The position numbers and the translations under genes are program-made. Below, in pieces: positions 10,828 through 17,344 of a stretch of 51,125 bases of DNA. This DNA comes from Chloroherpeton thalassium (GTDB lineage Bacteria; Bacteroidota; Ignavibacteria; Kapaibacteriales; UBA2268). Position 1 is the stretch's first letter, and every line of letters starts with the position of its first letter. The notes under the pieces are model-generated. The model made no database searches. It saw nothing but the letters and a program-made list of their open reading frames with translations, and was not told the DNA's origin. The DNA is taken from contig DYLM01000006.1 of NCBI GenBank assembly GCA_020722095.1, forward strand, positions 1 to 51,125, in the 5' to 3' direction.

Positions 10828-10863
10828 TAATTAATTCAATATTTATTTTAGTGAATCGTATAA

Positions 10864-10883
10864 ATACCACAACAAGGTAGTAT
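10864..10883. promoter_or_regulatory. Putative Rrf2/NsrR operator, autoregulatory copy
   Basis: ATACCAC-AACAAG-GTAGTAT is an inverted repeat with 7-base arms (one mismatch). It is nearly identical to the site at 11333-11352 and ends four bases before the regulator's ATG, overlapping its weak AAGG ribosome-binding site. Binding here could block initiation of transcription or its progress, giving autoregulation. It does not resemble the E. coli NsrR site, so the assignment rests on the shared position and sequence. Confidence 0.65.
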
Positions 10884-10887
10884 ATTA

Positions 10888-11316
10888 ATGAATTTATCAA
10901 ACACAGCAGAATACGCAATTAGAATTTTAACATTTATGGCGGTCAAAAAACTCGATATTTATACTGCTAAATACCTTATTGAACAGCTTAATATCTCGGA
11001 TAAGTACCTAAGAAGAATAATGACAAACCTTACAAAAGTCGGCTTAATTCGTAGTATTCAGGGGCGTGATGGTGGCTATGTTTTTAATGATAACCCCGAA
11101 AACATTAATTTAATGCAGATAATTGATGCAGTTGATGATATGGACAAATATATGGGTTGTGTTTTGGGATTTAAAGAATGTTCAGATTCAAATCCTTGCG
11201 TTTTACATTCGCAATGGGCAATAATAAGAAATCAAATATTCGATTTATTTAAAAAGACAAATTTATTAGAAGTGTCCGAAGATATGTTTTTAAAATTAGA
11301 GAAAATTAAATTTTAA
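10888..11316 (+). CDS. nsrR: Rrf2-family iron-sulfur transcriptional regulator, NsrR-like
   Basis: This is a predicted dimeric winged-helix repressor whose Fe-S cluster senses nitric oxide. The 142 residues begin with MNLSNTAEYAIRILTFMA, typical of Rrf2 proteins. A helix-turn-helix region follows (about 26-60: TAKYLIEQLNISDKYLRRIM) with the wing GRDGGYVF. Three cysteines in the cluster loop (CVLGFKECSDSNPC, C-x6-C-x5-C near residues 91-104) match the NsrR arrangement, with slightly different spacing from E. coli. It lies immediately upstream of the NO reductase gene, and the two share a near-identical inverted repeat. The specific name NsrR, rather than another Rrf2 member such as IscR, is inferred from the norZ context. 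Confidence 0.85.
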   Translation: MNLSNTAEYAIRILTFMAVKKLDIYTAKYLIEQLNISDKYLRRIMTNLTKVGLIRSIQGRDGGYVFNDNPENINLMQIIDAVDDMDKYMGCVLGFKECSDSNPCVLHSQWAIIRNQIFDLFKKTNLLEVSEDMFLKLEKIKF

Positions 11317-11332
11317 ATTTTTTTACAATAAA

Positions 11333-11352
11333 ATACTACAACAAAGTAGTAT
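11333..11352. promoter_or_regulatory. Putative Rrf2/NsrR operator upstream of norZ
   Basis: ATACTAC-AACAAA-GTAGTAT has perfect 7-base arms and matches the site at 10864-10883 in 18 of 20 positions. It lies in the 62-base gap between the regulator and the NO reductase, 26 bases before the reductase ATG. A separate site here suggests that norZ has its own regulated promoter as well as any read-through from nsrR. Confidence 0.7.
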
Positions 11353-11378
11353 TTAAATTAAATAAAAAAGGAGTATTT

Positions 11379-13598
11379 ATGAACAAAAGTTTACTCGACA
11401 AATTTATGAGCCATAAAGGCTTATACACAAGTTTCTGGATAATTGCATTGTTTATGGTGACGATGCTAATTTATTACACAGCAAACTTACAGAAAGAAGT
11501 TCCTCCAATTCCTAAAACTGTAACTTCAGTTAGCGGAGAAGTACTTTACACTTACGATGACGTAGTAGCAGGAAAAGGTTATTTCCAACAATTCGACCTT
11601 ATGGATTGGGGTACATTGCTTGGAATGGGAGCATATATGGGACCTGACTTTTCTACTGACTTTATGCACCACAGAACAGAATTTTTGTATGATTTTTATG
11701 CAAATGAATTATATGGAAAGACAAATAATGGTTTAACAAAAGTTGAACGCGCTGCAGTTAAAGAAAGAGTTAAGCAAGACATTAAGCAACAAACTAAATT
11801 ACTCGAAGAAACTACTACTTATACTGATGCATCTGCAGTTGCTTACCACAGAAATGTAGAGTACTTGGTTAAATTATTGGTAGAAGGCGACCCAAGTCGT
11901 GCTTTCCCAGGTGGAGTTATCCACCCAGATGAAGCTGAAAAGATCGCTTCATTTGTGGATTGGTCTCAATTAGTGGCTTCCTCACTTAGACCGGGAACAA
12001 ATAGAACTTGGTCGAATAACTGGCCCCCAGAACCTCTTTTAGACCAAGATGTTAGGTTTAATTCTCATAAAATTTCACTTTGGGAGTTTTTAATCCTTTG
12101 GACATTAACAATTTTTGTTATATTCCTTTCTTATGAATATTTATTAAAGAAAGATGACCCAAGTGAACTTCAACCTGCCATTAAAATTACAAGCTTATTC
12201 AAATCGCAAGCTAAATTACTGAAATATATTCCAATTGTAGCTGCACTATTTGTTGTTCAATTGATTATTGGTGGATATTTGGCTCACCTTTACACAGAAC
12301 CAACAAAAGATTTCTTGCTTTCGCAGAACTTATTACCATTTAACGTTTTAAGATCATTGCACACTCAAATCGCAATTTTATGGGTTGCAGTGGGTTGGTT
12401 AGTTGGTGGTTTATTGATTGCTCCTTGGGTAGCTAATAAAGACCACAAATACCCATGGCTTGTGGATGTATTGTGGGCAGCATTAGTTGTTGTAGCAGTT
12501 GGTAGTGTTATTGGTTTATATATGGGAGCAACTGGACAATTACGTGAAACTTGGTTCTGGTTGGGTAACGAAGGACGTGAATTAGTTAATTTAGGTAGAA
12601 TTTGGGATATTGGACTTGTCATCGGGCTTGTTTTCTGGTTCTTACTGATTATTTCCTTAATCAGAAAAGCTGCAACAAATAACCCAATTGTATCCACAAT
12701 TATTTGGTCTGCTTTTGCTATTGCAACTTTATACATTGCTGGTATGATGCCAATTCATAAAATTATGCCAAACTTTACAGTTGATGATTACTATCGTTGG
12801 TGGGTAATTCACTTATGGGTAGAATTAACATTCGAACTATTTGCAGCTGGCGTGATTGCATTCTTTACAGTATCGTTAGGATTAATTTCGCAAAAAACTG
12901 CAGTAAAAGTTATGCTTTTCGAATTATTCTTAATTATGTTGAGCGGAACTCTTGGAGTAGGGCACCATTACTGGTGGCAAGGTTTAGATGAATATTGGAT
13001 TGCTATTGGTGGAATTTTCTCTGCATTAGAACCACTTCCATTGGCATTAATGATTGTAGAAGCATGGAAAAACCATCGAGAAAAAGTACATAGTGGCGAC
13101 AATAACGAATTTGGTGTGCCATTTATGTGGATTGCAGGTTCTGCAGCTTTGAATTGGATAGGTGCAGGTTTCTTTGGTATGTTAATCAACACACCAACAA
13201 TTAGCTATTATTCACACGGAACATATTTGATTATGCCTCACGGACACGTTGCATTGTTAGGTGCATTTGGCTATATCTCAATTGCTTTCTTGTATATGAC
13301 TTCACGGGCAAACTCATTAGCTAAAGGCTTAGAATGGAACGCGAAACTTAGTAAGTATGGCTTTTGGTTATTAACAATTGGTGCTTTGTTATTTACAATT
13401 CCAACATATATTATTGGTATTGAACAAACAAGAATCGCACACGACTTGGGATATTATTACACTCGTTTAAGAGGTGCAGTTCAACCAATGTCGGGCTGGA
13501 TGTGGTTTAGAATATTACCTGACACATTGATGATTCTTGGTGGTATAGTTGTTCTTTACGATTTAGTACAAAAAACATTCTTAGCTAAAAAGAAATAA
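11379..13598 (+). CDS. norZ: Quinol-dependent nitric oxide reductase (qNOR)
   Basis: This is an inner-membrane enzyme that reduces two NO to N2O using quinol. The 739 residues are normal for single-subunit qNOR, with the NorC-like extension fused in front of the NorB core. An N-terminal membrane helix (about 14-36) precedes a periplasmic domain that lacks a CxxCH motif, as expected for qNOR. About twelve further helices follow. Haem and FeB ligand histidines are visible in RSLHTQIAILW, WWVIHLWVELTFE, GVGHHYWW and MPHGHVALLGAFGY, and the catalytic-region glutamates in HLWVELTFELFA and SALEPLPL. AAGGAG lies well placed before the ATG. The operator at 11333-11352 lies just upstream. The role could be detoxification or denitrification. 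No nitrite or nitrous-oxide reductase is present in the window, so detoxification is favoured. Confidence 0.95.
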   Translation: MNKSLLDKFMSHKGLYTSFWIIALFMVTMLIYYTANLQKEVPPIPKTVTSVSGEVLYTYDDVVAGKGYFQQFDLMDWGTLLGMGAYMGPDFSTDFMHHRTEFLYDFYANELYGKTNNGLTKVERAAVKERVKQDIKQQTKLLEETTTYTDASAVAYHRNVEYLVKLLVEGDPSRAFPGGVIHPDEAEKIASFVDWSQLVASSLRPGTNRTWSNNWPPEPLLDQDVRFNSHKISLWEFLILWTLTIFVIFLSYEYLLKKDDPSELQPAIKITSLFKSQAKLLKYIPIVAALFVVQLIIGGYLAHLYTEPTKDFLLSQNLLPFNVLRSLHTQIAILWVAVGWLVGGLLIAPWVANKDHKYPWLVDVLWAALVVVAVGSVIGLYMGATGQLRETWFWLGNEGRELVNLGRIWDIGLVIGLVFWFLLIISLIRKAATNNPIVSTIIWSAFAIATLYIAGMMPIHKIMPNFTVDDYYRWWVIHLWVELTFELFAAGVIAFFTVSLGLISQKTAVKVMLFELFLIMLSGTLGVGHHYWWQGLDEYWIAIGGIFSALEPLPLALMIVEAWKNHREKVHSGDNNEFGVPFMWIAGSAALNWIGAGFFGMLINTPTISYYSHGTYLIMPHGHVALLGAFGYISIAFLYMTSRANSLAKGLEWNAKLSKYGFWLLTIGALLFTIPTYIIGIEQTRIAHDLGYYYTRLRGAVQPMSGWMWFRILPDTLMILGGIVVLYDLVQKTFLAKKK

Positions 13599-13673
13599 TG
13601 TTTGAATAAAATTTATAAATTGCAGATTAGCAATTAAAATAAATTTTCGTTCTTAAACTTATATCAATTTTGG

Positions 13674-13806
13674 AGAGGCTGTCTCATAAGTCAGTTTTGC
13701 TGTCATTCCCACGAAAGTGGGAATCCATAAATCCTCTATAGTAGTTGATTCCCGTTTGCACGGGAATGACAATTTTGAAATATTTTGGACTTATGAGACA
13801 GCCTCT
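13674..13806. repeat. Complete MITE-like palindromic element (133 bp)
   Basis: AGAGGCTGTCTCATAAGTC (13674-13692) and its exact reverse complement (13788-13806) form 19-base terminal inverted repeats. Inside, TGTCATTCCC and GGGAATGACA also pair. Two perfect hairpins lie in the middle: ATTCCCAC-gaaa-GTGGGAAT (13705-13724) and ATTCCCGT-ttgc-ACGGGAAT (13748-13767). The folded form is a long stem with two arms. It fills most of the 318-base gap between norZ and the next gene. There is no coding content. Confidence 0.85.
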
Positions 13807-13916
13807 TCAAATTATTTTAGAATTAATAAAGTCTATAACAAATAAAATTTTCAATATTCAAATTTTGTTTTTAGATTTTATTAATCCTATAAATAAAAAA
13901 TAAAAGAGATTTTTTT

Positions 13917-15815
13917 ATGAAAAATATATATAAAGTAAACGAAGAATGTGTAGCTTGTAGAGCATGCGTAGAAGTCGCTCCCAATAATTTTGACATTGCT
14001 GATAATGGATTGGCTTTTGTTTACAAGCAACCAGAAAATGCCCAAGAAATCGCAAATTCAAACGAAGCAATGGAAGTATGTCCAGTTAGTGCAATTAGCA
14101 AAAAAGTTGTTGATAATTTATTAGAAAATATCAACTCTCCTATTTTTGCAAATTCAAATATCAAAGAAACCTTGGATAAACATCCAGAACTTAAGTCAGT
14201 TTTGGTAAATTATTCAGATAAGTTCAAAAAATTACTAAATCCAGTAATGTATAATACAGTTGCAAAATTTGCAACTTTCAATGATGCCGCAAGAGTTACT
14301 AAACTTTCGATTTGTGAAATTTTACATACTTTGAATGATTATTTGGGAACTACACAGGAATTATTACGCATCGCTCCTGATTGTATCCGTAGCAATCAAA
14401 TTGAAATACTTGTTGGCGAAACAATTAGTTGGGCAGAATCTCACGAAAGATATATTTACAATATCAACACAATGTCCGAAATTATACAAAAAATAACCGA
14501 ATTAAAGCCTCAAGAAAACATTGTATTAATTTCCACAGAATCGCCAGACGAAATAATCAACATCTGCAAAGGCTTAAATTTCAAATTCAATATTGAAAAT
14601 AATAGAGAATATCGAGTTAGTATATTCAATCCAAATAACGATAATGTATCTGATGATTGGCAAAGCAGAATGGAAGATTTTGAAGTATTAGACGTTCGGA
14701 CAATGAAAACAGATCCTTTCGACATCATAATTCAAAAGGCTTACCAATTGCAAGAAGGACAAGGCTTTAAACTAATTCAACGCTTTGAGCCAATCCCGAT
14801 TATGAATATGCTATCAGAAATGGGCTATGAATACGTATCAAAGAAAGTTGCTCAAAATGAATATCACGTTTATTTCCATAAAATTCCAGTCATTGAAGAT
14901 TCAATTGAGATATCAAACAAAACTGAACTTGTTATACAATCGGCAACTCCCGTTGCCTATCCTGTTATTATGCGATTACTTCAATCAGAAATTATTCGGA
15001 AATCAGTTAAAATAAAAGAATTAAAAGTTTGGGAAGAAACCGAAAAACACTTAGCTTGGATAAACAATGGAAAAGCAGATATTAGTTTTTCGGCATTAAT
15101 TACATCTGTAAAATTACAAAAAATCGACATAAAAATTCCTGCAATTTTTGTTTGGGATAATTTTGTTTTACTAACACGATATCCAATAAAAAGTTTAGAG
15201 GATATAAAAGGCAAAGTCATTCATACTCCTTTGTTCGAAGAAGCTCCACCTACAAAAATAACAAAGTATTTGATTAAAGCATTAGGAATGAATCCCGATG
15301 AATTTACATTTTCATACGGGAAACCTTTTGGAAGACCTGATGAAATTTTCAATGAATTTGTCACTGGTAAAGCAGATACAGTTATTCTTAGGGAGCCCGA
15401 AGCAAGTTATGCAATTAAATCACTTCGCGACAGAAAACTTCCTTTTTCCGCAATAAATTACAATGAGATTTGGAACGAAGTAAATCCTGGCTTCGGTAGT
15501 TTCCCAAATGCAGGTATTGTATTCAAAGGTGAATTTGTTCGTCAGAATCCCGAATTAGCAAGAGTATTTTTAGATGAATTAAAGAAAGCAATAGGATGGG
15601 TGAATACTAATAAAGATGAGTCTGCAAATCTTTCCTTTGATATGATGCGTCAAACCCCAGATAAAGTTCGCTTATTCTTGGATAGAGTTAATTTTACATA
15701 TTCCGAGGGAGCAGAATTAGTCGAAAAAGTGAAATCTTACTTTGAGGTTCTAACAGCACAAAATATTATTGATACAAAAATTGAAGATTCATTTTATAAT
15801 ATTTTTGAGTTATAA
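13917..15815 (+). CDS. Ferredoxin-DUF1858-DUF2249-substrate-binding-fold fusion protein
   Basis: This is a cytosolic 632-residue multidomain protein with no signal peptide. Residues 1-60 are a single-cluster ferredoxin domain with C11, C14, C17 and C55-P (CVACRAC...VCPVSAI). Residues about 82-145 match DUF1858, the fold also found at the N-terminus of ScdA-type iron-sulfur repair proteins (LDKHPELKSVLVNY, LNPVMYNTVAKFATFNDAA). Residues about 254-320 match DUF2249 (EVLDVRTMKTDPF, RFEPIPIMNMLSEMGYEY). Residues about 335-600 look like an NMT1/THI5-type periplasmic binding protein fold (PVAYPVIMRLL, GKADISFSALI, IKSLEDIKGKVI, FVTGKADTVILREPEA). Position behind nsrR-norZ suggests a role in NO stress, electron transfer or Fe-S repair. 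The ligand is unknown. The ATG at 13917 is the only sensible start. The PepSY-type gene follows after 14 bases. Confidence 0.75.
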   Translation: MKNIYKVNEECVACRACVEVAPNNFDIADNGLAFVYKQPENAQEIANSNEAMEVCPVSAISKKVVDNLLENINSPIFANSNIKETLDKHPELKSVLVNYSDKFKKLLNPVMYNTVAKFATFNDAARVTKLSICEILHTLNDYLGTTQELLRIAPDCIRSNQIEILVGETISWAESHERYIYNINTMSEIIQKITELKPQENIVLISTESPDEIINICKGLNFKFNIENNREYRVSIFNPNNDNVSDDWQSRMEDFEVLDVRTMKTDPFDIIIQKAYQLQEGQGFKLIQRFEPIPIMNMLSEMGYEYVSKKVAQNEYHVYFHKIPVIEDSIEISNKTELVIQSATPVAYPVIMRLLQSEIIRKSVKIKELKVWEETEKHLAWINNGKADISFSALITSVKLQKIDIKIPAIFVWDNFVLLTRYPIKSLEDIKGKVIHTPLFEEAPPTKITKYLIKALGMNPDEFTFSYGKPFGRPDEIFNEFVTGKADTVILREPEASYAIKSLRDRKLPFSAINYNEIWNEVNPGFGSFPNAGIVFKGEFVRQNPELARVFLDELKKAIGWVNTNKDESANLSFDMMRQTPDKVRLFLDRVNFTYSEGAELVEKVKSYFEVLTAQNIIDTKIEDSFYNIFEL

Positions 15816-15829
15816 ACAGATAATTACCT

Positions 15830-17344
15830 ATGTTAAAATTCCTTCGCAAATACCATAAATGGTTAAGTATTATTATTTCTTTTTTTGTAATTTTATTTGT
15901 AATTTCTGGAATAGTATTAAATCACCGTCAAACATTCTCATTTTGGGATATTAACCGCAATTTGCTCCCAAAAGATTATCGTTATAAAAATTGGAACAAT
16001 GCTTCGGTTAAATCCACTCTTAAATTATCTAATGATAGCATATTAATTTATGGAAATATTGGAATTTGGCTTACTGATTCAACCTTTTCCAAGTTTATTG
16101 ATTTCAATAAAGGTTTCAGAAATGGAATTGACAATAGAAAAATTTGTACAATGACTTTAACGAGCAAAAACCGTGTATTGGCAGGGACATTCTTTGGATT
16201 GTTTGAATTTATTCGCTATAAGCAAAAATGGACGAAAATCGACCTACCTACCAAAGAAAGCCGTGTAGTTGATTTGCTTAATATACAAGATACTACTTAT
16301 GTGATGACTCGATCTTTCTTGTTCCGAACAACTGACTTTGTGAAATTTGAAAAAGTTAATATCCCACCTCCAGTCAATTATGATAATAAAATTGGATTAT
16401 TCAAAACATTCTGGGTTATTCATAGCGGCGAAATTTATGGTTTGCCGGGTAAATTGATAGTTGATGCAGCAGGCTTGATATTTGCATTTCTAACGATAAC
16501 GGGAATAATTCTATTTATCAATAAATACTTAATCAAAAAGAAGGATTTAGTAGAAGAGAAAAAAAAGAAAATCGTAAAATCTTCCAAATGGCATTTAAAA
16601 TGGCATAATAAAATTGGCTGGATTACAGTTGCTTTGCTTATTATCAATACTTTTACGGGAATGTTCCTGCGTCCTCCGTTCTTGATTACCATTGCAAATT
16701 CGCGAGTAAATAAAATTCCATTTACCGAACTTGCTACCTCAAATCCATATTTTGATGCGTTAAGGCAAATTTCTTATGATGAAGGAAATAATGTCTTTCT
16801 TCTGGCAACAAATGACGGAATATTTTATTCTGATGATAATTTCCAAACTCCACTAAAAACATTTGCAAATCAGCCACCTATCAGTGTGATGGGAATAAAT
16901 GTGTTCAAACGAATCACAACCAATTTGTATTTGGTTGGCTCATTCGAAGGTTTGTATTTGTGGAATTATACAACAGGCGAAGTTTATGATTATATCCGCA
17001 ACGAAGTAGCAGTTAAGAAAACCGATAATGGCAGACCGATTGGGGAGTTTATGATAGGTGGTTTTACAGATGATTTTTTAAATCAAGAGATTGCTTTCGA
17101 GTATAATCAAGGCGCAGGAAATCTTACTTCTGACATACCTTTCCCAGAAATGCCAAAGGAAATAATTGAGAAATCGCCAATGTCAATGTGGAATTTTGCA
17201 TTAGAAGTGCATACAGGAAGAATATTCGAACCATTAATTGGTGATTTCTACATTTTAGTAGTACCAATCGTAGGAATATTTGTTTTATTCATTTTGATTT
17301 CAGGCTTTGTTGTGTGGTTTGTGCAATTCAGAAGAAAGCATTAG
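15830..17344 (+). CDS. PepSY-associated membrane protein with internal duplication
   Basis: The 504-residue inner-membrane protein has four predicted helices (about 12-34, 207-232, 260-282 and 475-500). This is the layout of PepSY_TM/ferric-reductase-like proteins. Histidines near helix ends (RKYHKWLS, LNHRQ, VIHSGEIYGLPGK, KWHNKIGW, EVHTGRIFEP) could bind haem. The two halves look duplicated: H-x-W-L/I plus helix, a large outer segment, then H-S/T-G-x-I plus helix. The outer segments contain blade-like strands (SILIYGNIGIWLTD, NVFLLATNDGIFYSDD, NLYLVGSFEGLYLWN) suggestive of beta-propeller pieces instead of typical PepSY domains. It follows the ferredoxin fusion by 14 bases and probably acts with it. 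Its stop overlaps the convergent helicase stop by four bases. The electron-transfer function is inferred. Confidence 0.75.
   Translation: MLKFLRKYHKWLSIIISFFVILFVISGIVLNHRQTFSFWDINRNLLPKDYRYKNWNNASVKSTLKLSNDSILIYGNIGIWLTDSTFSKFIDFNKGFRNGIDNRKICTMTLTSKNRVLAGTFFGLFEFIRYKQKWTKIDLPTKESRVVDLLNIQDTTYVMTRSFLFRTTDFVKFEKVNIPPPVNYDNKIGLFKTFWVIHSGEIYGLPGKLIVDAAGLIFAFLTITGIILFINKYLIKKKDLVEEKKKKIVKSSKWHLKWHNKIGWITVALLIINTFTGMFLRPPFLITIANSRVNKIPFTELATSNPYFDALRQISYDEGNNVFLLATNDGIFYSDDNFQTPLKTFANQPPISVMGINVFKRITTNLYLVGSFEGLYLWNYTTGEVYDYIRNEVAVKKTDNGRPIGEFMIGGFTDDFLNQEIAFEYNQGAGNLTSDIPFPEMPKEIIEKSPMSMWNFALEVHTGRIFEPLIGDFYILVVPIVGIFVLFILISGFVVWFVQFRRKH

Follow-up and report, generated by a model that had tools for sequence, protein, structure and literature searches.

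DUF1858 and DUF2249 are small domains found repeatedly, in bacteria as in archaea, around genes for denitrification and NO. Both occur in DrpB of Thermus thermophilus, a DUF1858-DUF2249-DUF2249 protein that affects nitrate-dependent expression, is reported as membrane-bound and has the periplasmic DrpA as its proposed partner (PMC6282519), and DUF2249 genes are induced in haloarchaeal denitrification (PMC11218638). A cytoplasmic domain resembling a binding protein is found in CmpC and NrtC, from the cyanobacterial bicarbonate and nitrate ABC transporters, and the C-terminal domain of CmpC is regarded as a regulatory domain that binds a solute (PMC11349869). The PepSY_TM protein CrpH supports the function of haem-copper oxidoreductases, the superfamily that includes NorB (PMC13038864).

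The gene analysed here lies in a 51,125-nucleotide stretch of DNA (the window) and joins elements of the DrpB and CmpC types in one reading frame, which starts with ATG, is uninterrupted by stops and encodes 632 residues. Its product has the three small domains of DrpB in the same order, shares the link with N-oxide respiration and likewise carries no output domain, but adds ferredoxin and binding-protein domains that DrpB lacks. In CmpC and NrtC the binding-protein-like domain is fused to an ABC ATPase, whereas here it is fused to a ferredoxin and a DrpB-like module. The gene and its domains are as follows:

13917..15815, plus strand: 632-aa protein, ferredoxin–DUF1858–DUF2249–DUF2249–binding-protein fold (ORF, Pfam, relatives, AlphaFold).
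13935..14099, plus strand: Fer4_13 ferredoxin domain, residues 7-61, with C11, C14, C17 and C55 as putative [4Fe-4S] ligands (Pfam, alignment).
14151..14321, plus strand: DUF1858, residues 79-135, helical, with the invariant C133 and, just past the domain end, the invariant H137 (Pfam; 68/68 rows).
14439..14636, plus strand: first, diverged DUF2249-like domain, residues ~175-240 (predicted secondary structure; homologue L122).
14685..14882, plus strand: second DUF2249, residues 257-322, predicted to have the TusA/SirA fold; D266-P267 occupies the TusA Cys-Pro position (Pfam; PDB comparison).
14913..15812, plus strand: bilobed binding-protein domain of the NMT1/SsuA/Thi5 type, residues 333-632 (Pfam, PDB comparison of the model, invariant cleft loops).

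The Pfam matches all exceeded the gathering cut-offs (Fer4_13, residues 7-61, E 1e-14; DUF1858, 79-135, 2e-13; second DUF2249, 257-322, 3e-8; NMT1, 374-567, 1e-7) and bore out the four segments named in an earlier, sequence-only reading of this DNA, which had overlooked one DUF2249-like domain, along with the likeness to DrpB, the PepSY_TM partner and its fusions, the Rrf2 operators and the spread of this domain order among relatives. Pfam detected a single DUF2249 in the window protein and two such stretches in the relative L122; since the predicted model also contained two units of this kind, the first a beta-alpha-beta-alpha-beta-beta unit at residues 178-237 and the second at 256-322, the order was read as Fd–DUF1858–DUF2249–DUF2249–SBP. 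The AlphaFold model, built from a 68-row alignment, had a mean pLDDT of 86.6 and a pTM of 0.60; its domains are confident, and their mutual arrangement is less so at that pTM.

The four cysteines that had been proposed as Fe-S ligands were found at the positions claimed. They form the CxxCxxC and distant Cys-Pro pattern of a single-cluster [4Fe-4S] ferredoxin (Fer4_13), align with the ligand cysteines of Desulfovibrio Fd I and Fd II, and are present in 62/68 aligned rows, the remaining rows having gaps (ferredoxin-less or truncated rows) bar one Ala at column 11. A [4Fe-4S] site in the N-terminal domain is plausible on this pattern. Further along the protein, C133, H137 and C156 were invariant in all of the aligned rows (n = 68/68). 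The same reading had placed the protein in the cytosol, in agreement with an N-terminus occupied by the ferredoxin domain and with fusions to PepSY_TM in some relatives (see below), in which it is preceded by a last TM segment ending in a basic tail, so that by the positive-inside rule the attached homologue should face the cytoplasm. An exported ABC binding protein was rejected, because the N-terminus is the ferredoxin domain, with neither signal peptide nor lipobox, and no ABC permease/ATPase pair was present among the annotated neighbours.

When a separate model of the middle region was compared with the PDB, the best matches of residues ~250-324 were TusA/SirA proteins (Z 9.9 to 8.1; TsuB 9.9, SirA-like protein 8.6, TusA 8.5), which gives the second DUF2249 a predicted TusA fold. 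The invariant D266-P267 stands where TusA has its sulfur-carrier Cys-Pro, an equivalence established by motif inspection; as Asp replaces the carrier Cys, a TusA-like sulfur relay was rejected, and sulfur transfer by this domain seems unlikely.

For the C-terminal half, a bilobed binding fold had been proposed and structure prediction suggested as the check. The predicted model of residues 333-632 has the bilobed type II fold of the NMT1/SsuA/Thi5 superfamily (PF09084), with Z scores of 25.6 to both 3hn0 and PqqT, 23.5 to SsuA and 22.8 to Thi5 (Z up to 25.6 over 269-284 residues), followed by 21.6 to the CmpC regulatory domain (9uai), 20.7 to NrtA and 20.0 to 8wm7_C, a further structure of the CmpC/NrtC type. 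Sequence searches of the PDB with this domain gave short, weak matches at most, an insufficient basis for transferring ligand contacts from solved complexes. The most conserved motifs of the domain (QSATP, WEETEKH, WDNF, PLF..APP, PFGRP, LREPE and PNAG), nearly all of them invariant, appear from the secondary structure of the model to sit at the loops by which this fold lines its cleft; such conservation is expected if one specific ligand is bound. The protein differs from other superfamily members in lacking an export signal, in having these invariant motifs of its own, and in carrying the fold C-terminal to a DrpB-like module in the loci seen.

Searching GTDB genomes yielded 95 confirmed relatives, for which 80 loci were kept. 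A chance or misassembled fusion was rejected on the retrieval of these loci, most of which match over nearly the whole length, and at least 60 relatives share the complete domain order. The loci are labelled Bacteroidota, Chlorobiota, Ignavibacteriota, Spirochaetota, Fermentibacterota, Campylobacterota, Bacillota, Myxococcota and others; the relatives are MAGs, and some taxon labels are perhaps wrong, one 'archaeal' row, for example, falling within a Bacteroidales group in the tree. The distribution is patchy, with only two full-length members, apart from that of the window, in some 450 genomes from the phylum. In the tree a group without the ferredoxin domain (L116, L117, L120-L122), several members of which adjoin Hcp, arises once, as do the PepSY fusion and a setting among MinD/ORP genes. 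A plasmid search returned matches to the binding-protein part and one to DUF2249, all of them at 35% identity or less. No description of the complete fusion was found in the open-access papers searched, and the protein represents a real, widely shared, cytoplasmic family of anaerobic bacteria, itself unstudied.

In the window the gene order is rrf2, norB, the 632-aa gene and a PepSY_TM gene, with these further features:

10863..10884, plus strand: candidate operator AATACCACAACAAGGTAGTATA 5' of rrf2 (sequence).
10888..11316, plus strand: Rrf2-family regulator (NsrR/IscR-like) with C91, C98 and C104 (Pfam; cysteines read from the translation).
11332..11353, plus strand: candidate operator AATACTACAACAAAGTAGTATT 5' of norB, a perfect half-site pair (sequence; equivalents in genomes G001 and G068).
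11379..13598, plus strand: quinol-type nitric oxide reductase NorB, combining COX1 with a NorB cytochrome c-like domain (Pfam).
13669..13811, no strand assigned: MITE-like palindromic element of 143 bp, bounded by terminal inverted repeats of 24 bp and lying between norB and the 632-aa gene (sequence).
15830..17344, plus strand: PepSY_TM membrane protein with four predicted TM segments and invariant H9, H32, H198, H259 and H461 (Pfam, alignment).

The suggestion that the small domains are connected with NO and Fe-S stress gains from this position beside a qNor-type norB and an Rrf2 regulator. Within three genes of the homologue, norB was found in 11/80 loci and rrf2 in 10/80, and a PepSY_TM gene adjoined or was fused in 11/80; the norB adjacency occurs on three separate lineages of the tree (window/L043/L044; L095/L098; a Bacteroidales group). 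Neighbours of the hemerythrin-PAS type, which match RIC weakly, were present in seven of the 80 loci, Hcp in three, and MinD- or ORP-type genes in 11. Altogether norB, hcp, hemerythrin-PAS, haem-copper oxidase or multihaem cytochrome genes lay within three genes in 22/80 loci, a lower bound given that many contigs are short; by our estimate, a single-copy gene of a ~4-Mb genome would be a chance neighbour in well under one locus. In five relatives, judging by length, PepSY_TM and the homologue form one polypeptide, as Pfam confirmed for L045 and L055; these fusions are 1143-1164 aa long and have PepSY_TM N-terminal to the ferredoxin domain. The NorB/PepSY setting is not universal, since in most of the 80 loci no PepSY gene is visible and both a ferredoxin-less clade and a MinD/ORP clade exist. 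In the latter (L068, L072, L081, L082 and L106) the homologues lie within a cluster of two Fer4-bearing MinD-type ATPases and a NifX/ORP-like protein, which we take to resemble the orange-protein cluster of Desulfovibrio.

The window Rrf2 protein scored below the NCBIfam NsrR equivalog cut-off. The palindrome AATACTAC-N6-GTAGTATT matched at 14/16 positions before rrf2 and 16/16 before norB, and equivalents occur at both positions in G001 and G068. The next match in the genome is a weak copy 66 bp 5' of nrfH:

L129 (G000 contig 85), 3646-3667, complement: weak Rrf2-operator copy 66 bp 5' of nrfH-nrfA (sequence).

This copy matches at 14/16 positions (12/16 at the corresponding site in G001) and is suggestive only of control of the ammonium-forming nitrite reductase nrfHA by the same regulator. 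A genome scan for the 22-bp operator allowing two mismatches gave five matches against six in the control; as loose-match counts do not exceed the control, the case for a regulon rests on position (rrf2, norB, nrfH) and conservation. The site scan found no Rrf2-type operator directly 5' of the 632-aa gene, and the MITE, with about 60 BLAST matches in the 2.46-Mb genome (some being opposite-strand matches of one copy), lies within the 318-bp gap that separates the gene from norB, so that co-transcription of the two in the window is assumed; in G068 the homologue begins 51 bp 3' of norB. The window genome encodes NrfA, and neither NosZ nor Hcp was found in it at 94.65% completeness, a combination that fits NO detoxification.

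Taken with the neighbourhood, a role of the protein in nitrosative or N-oxide stress is likely, and the protein probably serves NO defence as a redox helper or sensor. Our preferred reading, put forward tentatively and at slightly below an even chance, is a redox accessory: a cytoplasmic component of a nitric-oxide stress regulon whose N-terminal [4Fe-4S] domain would trade electrons with haem in the membrane by way of the PepSY_TM protein encoded next to it, while the DrpB-like middle and the binding-protein fold would take up one conserved small ligand and, once it is bound, gate or tune that flow. The conservation of the ferredoxin cysteines, the PepSY_TM adjacency and fusion, the norB neighbours and the CrpH precedent all count for it, as do the candidate operators, a gene content with NrfA and neither NosZ nor Hcp found, and the cleft-loop motifs; the limited spread of the NorB/PepSY setting, the lack of an operator before the 632-aa gene and the MITE between it and norB count against it. 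The partner in the window has the PepSY_TM domain and invariant His as in the reductases FoxB and CrpH; it differs from them in having a ferredoxin–DrpB-like–binding-protein polypeptide as its partner on the cytoplasmic side, fused to it in five relatives. Cytosolic electrons would most likely pass outward, supporting the NO reductase or its metal supply, on the precedent of the known PepSY_TM proteins, whose substrates are reduced in the periplasm (PMC13038864). A more specific version, in which the cytosolic binding-protein domain reads a nitrosative-stress metabolite and switches flow between the [4Fe-4S] ferredoxin and a PepSY haem protein that serves NorB, the whole forming a single polypeptide in some bacteria, is rather unlikely in that full form.

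The family ties DUF1858 and DUF2249 to a ferredoxin, a membrane protein of haem type and a ligand-binding fold, sometimes in one polypeptide, and such linkage makes the function of these domains directly testable. A redox accessory of this kind would add a component to the NO defence of anaerobic, ammonium-producing bacteria in which NosZ was not found.

The sequence-only reading had suggested that the binding-protein domain may detect or scavenge a cytosolic ligand and report to the cluster. Spelled out as a cytosolic sensor, the domain would respond to an N-oxyanion or a stress metabolite and the cluster to NO or redox state, with partners carrying the signal. Partner signalling has been proposed for DrpA and DrpB, the latter sharing the middle of the 632-aa protein, and nar expression becomes nitrate-independent when both Drp proteins are absent (PMC6282519); cytosolic binding-protein-like domains such as that of CmpC (PMC11349869) and the nearly invariant cleft residues agree with it as well. 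We nevertheless give this sensor only about one chance in four, since the protein has no output domain, the three-Cys Rrf2 regulator of the same operon can already supply NO/Fe-S sensing, and the ferredoxin domain and the PepSY fusion point to electron transfer and not to signalling alone.

An oxidoreductase, in which quinol or PepSY haem would feed electrons into the ferredoxin domain for the reduction of a substrate held in the cleft, is fairly improbable. The enzymes Thi5, DszB, MqnA and MqnD are among the fold matches, so a binding fold turned enzyme has precedents; the charged or aromatic cleft residues W372, E374, K377, H378, D414, R473, R492 and E493 are very strongly conserved, and the invariant C133, H137 and C156 could participate. 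Yet the protein lacks a domain for flavin or any other organic redox cofactor, one clade does without the ferredoxin domain, and the Thi5 active-site residues K62 and H66 align with S392 and T396 (in a weak but consistent alignment), the absence of which residues led us to reject a Thi5-type enzyme (HMP-P synthase). Maintenance of Fe-S or metal cofactors, with a metal or cofactor bound or delivered so that proteins damaged by NO, NorB among them, can be repaired or assembled, would suit the MinD-type ATPases and NifX/ORP-like proteins around one clade, the weak RIC match of the hemerythrin-PAS neighbours and the invariant C133/H137/C156, but is quite unlikely, as the MinD/ORP setting is confined to that single clade and the protein lacks any metal-transfer domain whose function is known.

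In other lineages a different 20-bp palindrome, AATACC-N8-GGTATT, was located mostly 68-100 bp 5' of the homologous gene, as in many Bacteroidales loci (L062, L071, L078, L092, L096, L097 and others), and in L079 and L084 between rrf2-norB and PepSY. It was about 27-fold enriched before homologues in the fetched loci and barely above the control in the window genome (15 against 12). In L104 (5265-7467) and L110 (5306-7517) an Rrf2 gene is followed, shortly 5' of the homologue, by CuA-type and COX1-type subunits of the haem-copper superfamily, a pair that may constitute an unusual kind of NO reductase, or else an oxidase.
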